This document shows, piece by piece, positions 44,848-49,055 of a DNA stretch of 64,000 nucleotides (the first letter of the stretch is position 1; every line of letters begins with the position of its first letter). The DNA is from Akkermansia muciniphila (GTDB lineage: Bacteria > Verrucomicrobiota > Verrucomicrobiia > Verrucomicrobiales > Akkermansiaceae), in contig CAMDCV010000009.1 of assembly GCA_945890645.1 (NCBI GenBank), positions 1-64,000 on the forward strand, written 5' to 3'. The translations under genes were made by a program, and so were the position numbers. Under the pieces are notes generated by a model. It was not told the origin of the DNA and did not search any database. It was given only the letters and a program-made list of their open reading frames with translations.

Positions 44848-45672
44848 ATGCCTATCCTCGATCTCGGAACTCGTTGTCTTCTCTGCCTGCATGGGGCTGA
44901 TTCCGTTCGCTATCTCAACGGCCAGGTGACGCAGGATGTGCGCTTGCTCCTTGCTCATCCTCAATCCGCCTTAGCATCGTGCGTCACGGATGCTAAAGGT
45001 CGACTGCAGGCCTTTGTCACGCTCTATTTACAGGAAACACAACGGCCTTCGTTGTGGATCGAAGCCCCCATCGAGCTGCGAGAGGTACTGCTTGCGCGGT
45101 TATCTCGCTACCTCATCGCCGACGATGCGGAAATCGAGGACATTTCGGATCAATACCACCTCGCTCATCACCTCTCACACACTCCCACACCAGGTGATTT
45201 TTCTCACTCTCGCCTGGGTGTTCCGGGGTTCGACCGTTGGCTACCCGCGCAGGAAACACACTCCCATACGGACCTACTGAGTATCGAAGAAGCTGAGCGC
45301 ATTCGCATCGAAAACGGCATCCCTGCATGGGGACACGAACTGCAGGAAGGTATGCTGCCGCCCGAAGCAGGATTGGATGCCACCGCCATCTCCTATCAAA
45401 AGGGCTGCTACATCGGTCAGGAAGTCATTTCACGCATCAAATCCGCCGGTAAAGTCAACCGTCGCCTCTGTAAGTTTTCGTTAGAAGCGAGTGATGTCTG
45501 CGCATGTGCGATCCTACTTGATGAGAATGGCGGGGAAGTCGGCGAACTCACCAGCGTCGCACATCCCTTCGCCCTCGGCTATGTGTCCAAAAAAGCATTC
45601 GGGCAAACCAGGTTCACCCTGCGCTTGCCCGATGGTACTCTGCGGGGCGATGCGGCCCGCATTCGCGATTAA
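44848..45672 (+). CDS. ygfZ: YgfZ/GcvT-like folate-binding protein
   Basis: 274 residues. The family signature KGCYIGQEVISRI is present near residue 189, with the conserved Cys. The N-terminal part (CLLCLHGADSVRYLNGQVTQ) resembles the aminomethyltransferase fold. YgfZ proteins use tetrahydrofolate to support assembly or repair of iron-sulfur clusters in the cytoplasm. The start ATG at 44848 fits the family. It overlaps by 4 bases the end of the convergent retropepsin gene. Confidence 0.9.
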   Translation: MPILDLGTRCLLCLHGADSVRYLNGQVTQDVRLLLAHPQSALASCVTDAKGRLQAFVTLYLQETQRPSLWIEAPIELREVLLARLSRYLIADDAEIEDISDQYHLAHHLSHTPTPGDFSHSRLGVPGFDRWLPAQETHSHTDLLSIEEAERIRIENGIPAWGHELQEGMLPPEAGLDATAISYQKGCYIGQEVISRIKSAGKVNRRLCKFSLEASDVCACAILLDENGGEVGELTSVAHPFALGYVSKKAFGQTRFTLRLPDGTLRGDAARIRD

Positions 45673-47072
45673 CGTTGATAAAGGAAAATCTTTTTCTCGC
45701 TGTAGGTGATGACCGCGTCGAGCTCGCGCATGAAGTCCGCGCCGAACAAACCAACATAATCAAGATCGCGACCGCTGCGGGCGGACATATCGGTGGCCAA
45801 GGTGCGGCGATTCGTCAGTTGCACTTTACCCAACGTGATTTTTTTCATCACCGTCTCTCCCGCAGGTGCGCTGCCGCCGATGCCATAAACCAAATGTTCC
45901 ATTGGTCCTACCTCGCAGCCGCTCTTGTTCGCCTGTTTCAAGTCGAGCAAGGATGTATTCGCACCAGTATCGATCATCCATGTCACCGCGGCGTCATTGA
46001 GCGTGCCATCGACAAAAATGTGGTTGCCGCGACGCTCATAAAGGAAGGCGTTATACTTGCGCAAATTCAGTAACTCCTCAATGGTCAGCGCGCCGCAATA
46101 GCGGAGGAAAATATCGCCCGCTTCCGTCCAAGTATCCGCGTATTTTTGGTCTTCATCAGACAAATTTGCCACTGGCACTTGCTGGGTCTTGCCATCATTC
46201 AATTTCACCGTCAACACAGTCGGAGTTTTGGAAATGATGTTCGCCCGGAAGCTCTTGCCGTCGCGCGTTTTGAAAATGCGGAAATTGAGCGTTTCATCTT
46301 TGTTCTTCACCTCGCCCTCGACGCCGAGGTCAGCAGACTTGGCAGCATCGCCCTCGACTTGCGTGCGATCCGATTTGTCGGGTCGGAAAAAGATGCGGTT
46401 CTCTTTGTAGGAAATCACCGTGTCCAATTGCGCCAGCAAATCCGCACCGAAGAGGCCGGCGGTGTCGTTCGACTTGGCACCATCGGGCTTATCCTTATCC
46501 ATGTCGGTCGCAAGAATCTTGCGATTTTTGAACAATGACTCCCCTAACGAAAGAGTCGGCACGTCCACCCAGCCCGCAGGCACATCACCTGCCACGCCGG
46601 ATACAATTTCTGTCATCGGTCCGACAACAAGATCGCATTTTTCGGCAGTTTTGGTGTGCAAGAGACTGGTGCCAGCTCCGGTATCGACGATGAACTTCGC
46701 GTCTTTGTTGTTGAGTTTGGAAGTGACGATGATCGAGTTTCCTTGCAAGGTCATCGGGAAAGATTCGTAGCCACGCAATTCCAGCAACTGCCGCACGCTC
46801 AAGCCGAGGCATTTTTGCAGGAACAAGGCTTTTTCTTTGCTCCACTCCTTGATGTACTGCTGATCTTCTGCCGATAAATTGGTCAAGGGCACAATCGCGC
46901 GACGTTTGTTTTCGAGCAACAATGTCGCATTGGTGTCATCCTTATCGATGAGCGCCGCCTTGATTTCTTTGCCATTGGAACCTTTGAATACACGCAGCGC
47001 TTGCGTGGCATCCTGTGCCATAGCCGTCGAGGCGCAACACAGCGCCGTGATAAAAATACTGAATAATTTCAT
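45669..47072 (-). CDS. Exported tandem SHD1-retropepsin protein (two aspartic protease units in one chain)
   Basis: 467 residues with signal peptide MKLFSIFITALCCASTAMA. It has two consecutive copies of the same module. Copy 1 has an SHD1-like beta domain (RVFKGSNGKEIKAALID, then IVPLTNLSAEDQQYI) followed by a retropepsin-like domain with FIVDTGAGTSLL (D130) and GLFGADLLAQLD. Copy 2 has RIFKTRDGKSFRANIISKTP and VPVANLSDEDQKYA, then MIDTGANTSLL (D368) and GLFGADFMRELD. Retropepsins normally dimerise with one DTG each; this chain could form its own two-lobed active site. The gene downstream on the same strand's 5' side (47114) also has an SHD1-like domain. Substrate unknown. Confidence 0.85.
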   Translation of the reverse strand: MKLFSIFITALCCASTAMAQDATQALRVFKGSNGKEIKAALIDKDDTNATLLLENKRRAIVPLTNLSAEDQQYIKEWSKEKALFLQKCLGLSVRQLLELRGYESFPMTLQGNSIIVTSKLNNKDAKFIVDTGAGTSLLHTKTAEKCDLVVGPMTEIVSGVAGDVPAGWVDVPTLSLGESLFKNRKILATDMDKDKPDGAKSNDTAGLFGADLLAQLDTVISYKENRIFFRPDKSDRTQVEGDAAKSADLGVEGEVKNKDETLNFRIFKTRDGKSFRANIISKTPTVLTVKLNDGKTQQVPVANLSDEDQKYADTWTEAGDIFLRYCGALTIEELLNLRKYNAFLYERRGNHIFVDGTLNDAAVTWMIDTGANTSLLDLKQANKSGCEVGPMEHLVYGIGGSAPAGETVMKKITLGKVQLTNRRTLATDMSARSGRDLDYVGLFGADFMRELDAVITYSEKKIFLYQR

Positions 47073-47113: not shown

Positions 47114-48382
47114 TCATTTAAAATCGTTACTTTTCAGATATGCGATCCAATCGGCTTCCATCGCAGCCACGGTATCAAAGCCATAAATTTTGGCCAACTC
47201 TTCCAGTTCAGGAATCGCGTTGTTTGACTCGACCCGCCGAATCGTGCGCGCAAATGCGCAGACGCGCTGTGGATTACTTTGCAGGTAATTTGCTAAGGAA
47301 TAAACCAGCACCAACTTCGCTGGATTCAAGGTATCAGCTTCAACGGCGAAAATCTCTTCAAGGTTCGGCTTGATCTTCTCGCGCTTCACTTCCGATTTCA
47401 AAATCTTCGGCCAGGCAGTGCCATCGTCGAATCCCGACTTGGAAGAAATTTCATCGCCGGCAGAGCCACCGACATCGAGCAAGTGGGTTTCCGTTTTTCC
47501 GGAGAGCTTGATCTCCTTGTAGTATGCGTGACCTGTAGCGATGGCGAAATAGCCTTTTTTGCCAACGCTACCGACACCACCCATTTGCTGGTTGAGCAAA
47601 TCACCGGCGATCACGTGGGTGGGAAACGGTGTGAAAACTTTTTTGAATTCACGATCGTTGTTCATATTGAACACTGTTGCCATGGCATGAAATTTTCTTT
47701 CTTCGCAAAGCTCATCGGGAAGCTCGATCGAAGTGCCTCCCACCTTGTCCCAAGTGGCAGCTTGTTTCTGGGCACGAAGTTGTCCGTCGGCGTCGGCGGC
47801 TTTTGCGCCTAAGATCTCACCATACCAATTACCCAGCCACTTGTAGGCCTCACGATCTTCGCAAACGAAAATGACGCGGCGTTTGTCACCCCAATCGCGG
47901 CGGAAGTTCATGTGATAAAACGCCATGCCATGCCAGAGGCGTTCGGCAATCTCGGCGACCACCTGCGGACGTACGTCACCCGCATAGGCGATCAGGAAAT
48001 GCTCCGTCTCCATTTGCTCGAACAGGCCTTCGGACTGATCTTTCGCCAACACCAATTTGCCATCCAGTTTTTTATAAGTGCCCGAATCGATTTTGACATC
48101 TTTTTCCGGCTCACTCAATTCACCAGCCGTGAGGATGGATTCGGGCGCTTGCACGTTTTCCACGAGATACTGACGATCCGCCAGCGATAGCTCGGTCACG
48201 GGAAGTTTGATTTCCTTGCGGTCCTTCGTCACTAGAGTCGCGGTTGCGCCCTCGAGCTTACCCAAGGTGGCATCCACAGTCGAACCCTTCAAAGAGGTCC
48301 AGGTGCGAACATCCTCCGCCATTGTCACAGCCGAAAGCGCGATACCAACGGCAACAGTTATACGATAGATTGTGCTTTTCAC
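47114..48382 (-). CDS. Exported SHD1-domain protein, possible degenerate peptidase
   Basis: 422 residues starting at GTG 48382, which gives the signal peptide VKSTIYRITVAVGIALSAVT. Residues ~25-75 (WTSLKGSTVDATLGKLEG and IKLPVTELSLADRQYL) form an SHD1-like domain like those in the adjacent retropepsin protein. The remainder has FLIAYAGDVRPQVVAEIAER and RVIFVCEDREAYKWLGNWYG, the layout seen in DUF1570-type secreted peptidase-like proteins. No HExxH is present, so catalysis is doubtful. It lies 41 bases upstream of the retropepsin gene, same strand, and is very likely co-transcribed with it. Confidence 0.65.
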   Translation of the reverse strand: MKSTIYRITVAVGIALSAVTMAEDVRTWTSLKGSTVDATLGKLEGATATLVTKDRKEIKLPVTELSLADRQYLVENVQAPESILTAGELSEPEKDVKIDSGTYKKLDGKLVLAKDQSEGLFEQMETEHFLIAYAGDVRPQVVAEIAERLWHGMAFYHMNFRRDWGDKRRVIFVCEDREAYKWLGNWYGEILGAKAADADGQLRAQKQAATWDKVGGTSIELPDELCEERKFHAMATVFNMNNDREFKKVFTPFPTHVIAGDLLNQQMGGVGSVGKKGYFAIATGHAYYKEIKLSGKTETHLLDVGGSAGDEISSKSGFDDGTAWPKILKSEVKREKIKPNLEEIFAVEADTLNPAKLVLVYSLANYLQSNPQRVCAFARTIRRVESNNAIPELEELAKIYGFDTVAAMEADWIAYLKSNDFK

Positions 48383-48461
48383 GTAAGCAGTCTCAGGACC
48401 ACGCACCGTGAAAGCAAGAAAAAAACGCTCGCGGCGTGTGGCAAAGCGTGTAGTTTTTCTC

Positions 48462-49055
48462 ATGGAATTTGATCTAACGGGGCCACATGCGGACGACGCC
48501 TATCGAATTTTAAGCTCCCTCGTGACGCCACGACCGATTGCATGGATCACCACTCTGAATGAGGACGGCAGTATCAATGCCGCGCCCTTTTCGCATTTTA
48601 ATGTCGTCGGTGACGATCCGCCGATGGTGATGTTTTGCCCCAGCAATCGCGATGATGGCACCCCCAAGGATACCGCACTGAACTGCCGCCGGAATGGCGA
48701 ATTTGTTGTCAATTTCGTCGATGAATCACTGTGTCCCATGATGGTGCGCAGCTCCGCACCCCTCCCCTACGGCGAAAGCGAAATCACCCGTGAAGGCCTT
48801 GCTACGGTCGCTAGCAACAGCGTCGCCGTGCCCCGCATTGCACTCGCCCCCGCTGCGCTGGAGTGCCAGGTGCACGATATTTTGGAGATGGGAAACAATC
48901 GACTGATCATCGGACTTGTGCAGCGCGTTCACGTGAGCGATGCCCTCATCGATCCGCTGACAAAGCGAATTCACTACCACCCGATTGGTCGCATGGCATC
49001 GCCCGATTGGTACTGCCGCACCACCGACCAATTTAGCATGCCGCGTCCGCGTTGA
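48462..49055 (+). CDS. Flavin reductase-like domain protein (FMN-binding split barrel)
   Basis: 197 residues. RPIAWITTLNEDGSINAAPF, then SHFNVVGDDPPMVMF is the standard flavin-reductase-like opening, with the S-x-F-N-x-V block. GEFVVNFVDESL and LECQVHDILEMGNNRLIIG, VQRVHV follow in order. The protein should bind FMN. The substrate is not deducible. The ATG at 48462 is used rather than an upstream ATG (48408) whose 18 extra residues are all basic. It is divergent from the SHD1 protein with 79 bases between starts. Confidence 0.87.
   Translation: MEFDLTGPHADDAYRILSSLVTPRPIAWITTLNEDGSINAAPFSHFNVVGDDPPMVMFCPSNRDDGTPKDTALNCRRNGEFVVNFVDESLCPMMVRSSAPLPYGESEITREGLATVASNSVAVPRIALAPAALECQVHDILEMGNNRLIIGLVQRVHVSDALIDPLTKRIHYHPIGRMASPDWYCRTTDQFSMPRPR

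Follow-up and report, generated by a model that had tools for sequence, protein, structure and literature searches.

A predicted exported double retropepsin of Verrucomicrobiales with an old SHD1-retropepsin duplication, and the probable pairing of its lobes

Introduction

One gene in the window, the 64,000-nucleotide stretch of Akkermansia muciniphila DNA analysed here, encodes a chain with two retropepsin-like lobes. Do the two lobes pack together within that chain, or does each find its partner on a second chain, and how did such a chain arise? We put a probability of roughly 0.7 on the first reading, namely an exported aspartic peptidase in which cis pairing of the lobes would create one pepsin-like site; that pairing is what we infer.

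Results

Layout of the gene and its domains

The open reading frame at 45669-47072, on the minus strand of the window, was confirmed as a real gene for a protein of 467 aa (Table 1). Its N-terminus, MKLFSIFITALCCASTAMA followed by Q, reads as a standard Sec signal peptide, A-x-A site included, which agrees with the original prediction that the protein is exported.

Table 1. Features of the double retropepsin gene and its neighbour, in window coordinates
Feature	Residues	Position	Strand	Basis or remark
Whole gene, 467 aa		45669..47072	-	order: signal peptide, SHD1a, lobe a, tether, SHD1b, lobe b
Signal peptide (cut AMA/Q)	1-19	47016..47072	-	read from sequence
SHD1-like domain a	26-80	46833..46997	-	Pfam 22.2 bits, slightly below cut-off; 13/20 orthologues match
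Helical connector a, holds FLQKCLGLSVRQLLELRGY	81-103	46764..46832	-	most conserved segment, mean identity 0.65
Cys88, possible disulfide partner of Cys326	88	46809..46811	-	orthologue alignment
Retropepsin lobe a	104-232	46377..46763	-	PF13650; superposes on Rickettsia retropepsin 5c9f, Z 6.9
Catalytic Asp130 of DTG	130	46683..46685	-	invariant 71/71
Tether	233-262	46287..46376	-	poorly conserved, mean identity 0.21
SHD1-like domain b	263-318	46119..46286	-	superposes on 2hbp, Z 7.4
Helical connector b	319-341	46050..46118	-	conservation among orthologues
Cys326	326	46095..46097	-	orthologue alignment
Retropepsin lobe b	342-466	45675..46049	-	PF13650, second stretch; HIV-1 protease, Z about 5
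Catalytic Asp368 of DTG	368	45969..45971	-	invariant 70/70 complete copies
Partner: exported SHD1 + about 300 aa domain without Pfam/PDB match		47114..48463	-	neighbourhood, co-occurrence

Two retropepsin domains had been predicted, and Pfam PF13650 (Asp_protease_2) indeed matches the protein over two stretches, with an E value of 4.5e-22 and 79 bits against a curated cut-off of 24.3; a Pfam retropepsin match was found in all 20 of the 20 orthologues searched. The NCBIfam model TIGR02281 (clan AA aspartic protease) scored 50.0 bits, under its cut-off of 57.95, and no profile of pepsin family A1 appeared among the Pfam matches up to E 0.1. The PF13650 match and the D-[TS]-G motif are those of a retropepsin-like (clan AA) peptidase. 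With pepsin A1 it shares two lobes on one chain and one Asp in each, a likeness in architecture only.

The predicted catalytic residues, D130 and D368, do lie in DTG motifs 238 residues apart. Both are invariant, D130 in all 71 aligned members and D368 in the 70 that reach the position, and so they are in a smaller orthologue set (20/20 for both). The T and G after them are present in all aligned members, except for one DSG, and D-T/S-G-A is strictly conserved in both lobes across three families. Seven further residues (R347, H351, D355, G399, R422, R449 and E450) are invariant in lobe b and absent from lobe a, a pattern that specialisation of the two halves would produce.

The assignment of the small domains as SHD1-like is held up by the relatives and the structural match rather than by the profile score of the window protein itself: SHD1 (PF03983) gives 22.2 bits, just short of the Pfam cut-off of 23.7, whereas 13/20 orthologues match at E <= 0.01. 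The top structural match of the modelled second copy is the Sla1 SHD1 domain 2hbp (Z 7.4, 56/66 residues, 2.4 A), in a stretch modelled at a pLDDT of about 60-76, followed by Hfq and other small SH3-like barrels at Z 5-5.6. Literature searches on PF13650 and on SHD1 found nothing relevant to bacteria. A strongly conserved helical connector precedes each lobe in both units; the sequence of the tether between the units varies freely (mean identity 0.21), and the tether therefore imposes little restraint.

An old internal duplication

The protein had been described as an exact internal duplication, which overstates the resemblance of its halves. When residues 20-228 are aligned with residues 258-463, 84 of the 206 positions (41%) are identical and one 3-residue gap is needed. 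The alignment score of 388, against a maximum of 56 among 500 shuffles, shows that the units share an origin. Nucleotide identity between them is 49%, and the same codon is used at just 35 of the 84 residues identical between units. Duplication of the SHD1-retropepsin unit is certain, far beyond chance, but at 41% amino acid and 49% nucleotide identity it is old and diverged rather than exact.

Structure prediction yielded models of low confidence. The AlphaFold model of the whole protein, built from a 3-row alignment, reached a pLDDT of 41, and that of residues 84-467, from a 4-row alignment, a pLDDT of 51; the arrangement of the lobes is unreadable in both. In the 4-row model, poor as it is, the lobes match 5c9f at Z 6.9 and HIV-1 protease at Z about 5. 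Foldseek alignments spanning both lobes, to 9iy9 and to tethered HIV-1 protease dimers, have an rmsd of 13-17 A, which reflects the poor model (pLDDT 51).

Distribution and relatives

About 70 orthologues were collected from three families (f1, f2 and f3) of the order Verrucomicrobiales. Among 57 related genomes, the full-length protein is present in 8/10 of the genus, its own included; it also turns up in several genera beyond this one and in two further families of the order. At 1e-30, 77 of the 387 Verrucomicrobiales genomes searched gave a match; within the phylum, of which 289 genomes were sampled, full-length matches were confined to its own family, f1. Two related records come from Verrucomicrobial MAGs, and scans of viral contigs found no relative.

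To place the two-lobed form we surveyed 81 retropepsin ORFs, mostly from Pfam matches in Verrucomicrobiales, a hand-picked and non-random set that includes a few truncated members of the SHD1-retropepsin family. Sixty were two-lobed, 19 one-lobed, one undecided and one four-lobed. D[TS]G stands in both lobes of 51 of the 60 two-lobed ORFs and the Asp itself in 56/60, the other four having truncated or degenerate lobes. Many ORFs of 290-370 aa in Verrucomicrobiales carry two retropepsin lobes; such ORFs also occur, without the SHD1 form, in a genus (g3) of the same family with small complete genomes. The four-lobed protein (L040, 1065-3752 on the minus strand, G018:C6) has 895 aa, with its lobes arranged as two pairs and D[TS]G in all. 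In Novosphingobium, L039 (4305-5798) has two lobes with DTG in both, behind a long N-terminal region. A two-lobed chain is therefore not an isolated oddity: judging by the 60/81 of the survey, the Novosphingobium protein and the Bacteroides fragilis structure 9iy9, double retropepsins on a single chain are common in bacteria, and one of them (9iy9) has a solved structure. A literature search turned up no publication that describes 9iy9 or any two-lobed bacterial retropepsin. What is distinctive here is the SHD1-like domain before each lobe, the one Cys per unit, the single-unit DTGA relatives and the conserved SHD1 neighbour.

The search for single-unit relatives that had been proposed as a check was rewarding. 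Five genomes of f2 encode proteins (L158-L162) with one SHD1 and one lobe with an intact DTGA, and the single-unit and double proteins occur together in G401, G434, G124, G132 and G447. Two other ORFs, L042 (381-1091) and L043 (896-1660), combine one SHD1 with a single lobe that lacks the catalytic motif (NPSA and DPSR, respectively) and are probably pseudoenzymes. From these two we had considered that all single-unit relatives have lost the motif, an idea dropped since intact DTGA ones exist. Loss of the motif in such SHD1-lobe relatives would fit a non-protease role, in which the lobes of the double protein serve as a binding scaffold. We regard this as very improbable, because the D-T/S-G-A motif is strict in both lobes over three families.

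In a tree of the individual units, the a units and the b units each form one group in families f1 and f2. No a or b unit groups with the DTGA singles, which lie apart on a long branch; because of that branch the root of the tree is uncertain. Independent duplications in different families, suggested at first by an AU p of 0.03 in a test without an outgroup, were not upheld in a test that had single-unit outgroups and extra f2 rows (p 0.18), so one duplication is enough. A single duplication that takes in f3 as well is not rejected at this AU p of 0.18, and f3 may share it. The simplest account would be a single-unit ancestor and then a tandem duplication, most simply once, before the families of the order split.

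Pairing of the lobes

Pairing in cis is supported by the conservation of both Asps (70/70), by the alignment of 9iy9 over both lobes and by the commonness of two-lobed forms. The main alternative is pairing between like units of two chains (a-a' and b-b'), giving two independent HIV-protease-like sites per dimer. The retropepsins RloA (PMC12239564) and RimB (PMC11957791) do work as homodimers, and since there are single-unit SHD1 relatives with an intact DTGA, one unit may homodimerise alone, which counts against the cis reading. With independent sites, however, occasional decay of a lobe would be expected, yet the Asps are kept in 70/70 orthologues and, in the survey, in both lobes of 56/60. 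Overall, we consider such homotypic dimers unlikely.

Two cysteines bear on the same choice. Cys88 and Cys326 occupy equivalent positions of units a and b, one Cys per unit; both are present in 61/71 members and neither in 9, all of family f3, whilst one orthologue (L207) keeps Cys88 and has Ala326. A Cys88-Cys326 disulfide is plausible in an exported protein. Because the expected pseudo-twofold axis would relate these positions to each other, the bond might link a with b (cis) or a with a' (trans). That the cysteines come or go together favours the a-b link and speaks against the homotypic dimer, although symmetric trans disulfides are possible, and the L207 exception weakens the cis reading. 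The evidence is only suggestive, because the split of 61 against 9 may be a single event.

A domain-swapped arrangement between chains (a-b' and b-a'), with two mixed active sites per chain dimer, would leave an identical pattern of Asp and Cys conservation, and the long flexible tether permits swapping. The same tether allows pairing in cis, which is entropically cheaper, and 9iy9 was deposited with a single chain; we judge the swap quite improbable.

A conserved neighbouring gene

The partner gene, immediately upstream and in the same orientation in the window, encodes an SHD1-bearing protein of about 420-449 aa; searches of Pfam and the PDB gave no match for the remaining about 300 residues beyond its SHD1. 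The partner protein at 47114-48463 (minus strand) has a conserved GH.YYKE motif. In almost every neighbourhood read, the partner adjoins the double retropepsin gene, although its orientation differs: same strand in f1, convergent in G055 and divergent in G050 and G056. Across 57 genomes it is present in 21/21 with the retropepsin versus 2/36 without (Fisher p 1.2e-13, kinship ignored), and this co-occurrence makes a strong case for a functional link between the two genes.

Discussion

We propose that, once exported, the chain would bring its own two lobes together, so that Asp130 and Asp368 would make up one catalytic dyad, much like that of pepsin or of a tethered HIV-1 protease dimer. In members that have both cysteines, a Cys88-Cys326 disulfide may hold the halves in place. 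The SH3-like SHD1 domains, two per chain, could dock the substrate or the product of the neighbouring gene; this product would be the leading candidate substrate or cofactor. The chain itself would go back to tandem duplication of an SHD1-retropepsin unit, most simply a single event that preceded the divergence of the families.

The original prediction saw in this chain a possible parallel to the gene fusion thought to have made pepsins. Two intact lobes, invariant Asps and surviving single units fit duplication and fusion, but the two-lobed form is not unique, and the parallel is a reasonable possibility. More tentatively, and with the odds somewhat against it, the family may stand between retropepsin and pepsin: a single SHD1-retropepsin that was duplicated and fused into an obligate intramolecular heterodimer, with a disulfide across the pseudo-twofold axis, and whose unfused unit survives in some of the same genomes. 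If this is true, the fusion hypothesis for pepsin becomes testable within one clade whose lobes are still 41% identical. Because the lobes can be aligned end to end, one- and two-unit forms share genomes and the Asps are invariant, fission, swap and single-Asp experiments are possible. The partner gene, in turn, gives a way into the role of these exported Verrucomicrobial proteases, which are a widespread class.

The closest known counterpart is PDB 9iy9, a putative endopeptidase of B. fragilis ('Exported protein', 420 aa), likewise an exported chain with two lobes and, by sequence, a DTG in each. Its second lobe matches weakly (6.9 bits), and its lobes adjoin (164-281 and 302-412), with no space between them for an SHD1-like domain. 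Other bacterial retropepsins have one lobe per chain. The RloA proteases of Pseudomonas, which form C2 homodimers (PMC12239564), resemble the present protein as exported retropepsin-like enzymes with DTG but differ in their single lobe. The same difference separates it from the APRc/ApRick protease of Rickettsia (5c9f; PMC4140852), which lobe a matches best in structure (Z 6.9), and from RimB (PMC11957791), both of which have the bacterial retropepsin fold that the present lobes would share. Tethered HIV-1 protease dimers (1hvc, 4eq0, 2o40) also place two retropepsin lobes on one chain, but they are engineered, with near-identical lobes and a short linker, and align to our poor model at 13-17 A. 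The small domains have the fold of yeast Sla1 SHD1 (2hbp, Z 7.4), which in contrast belongs to a eukaryotic endocytic adaptor. Pepsin A1 is bilobed, with one Asp per lobe and a proposed origin by duplication and fusion. Its bacterial homologues are said to be intracellular (PMC2761423), whereas the window protein has an export signal. How retropepsin dimers and pepsin are related is an old question because the two lobes of pepsin retain next to no resemblance in sequence (PMC2761423), in contrast to the 41% identity found here.
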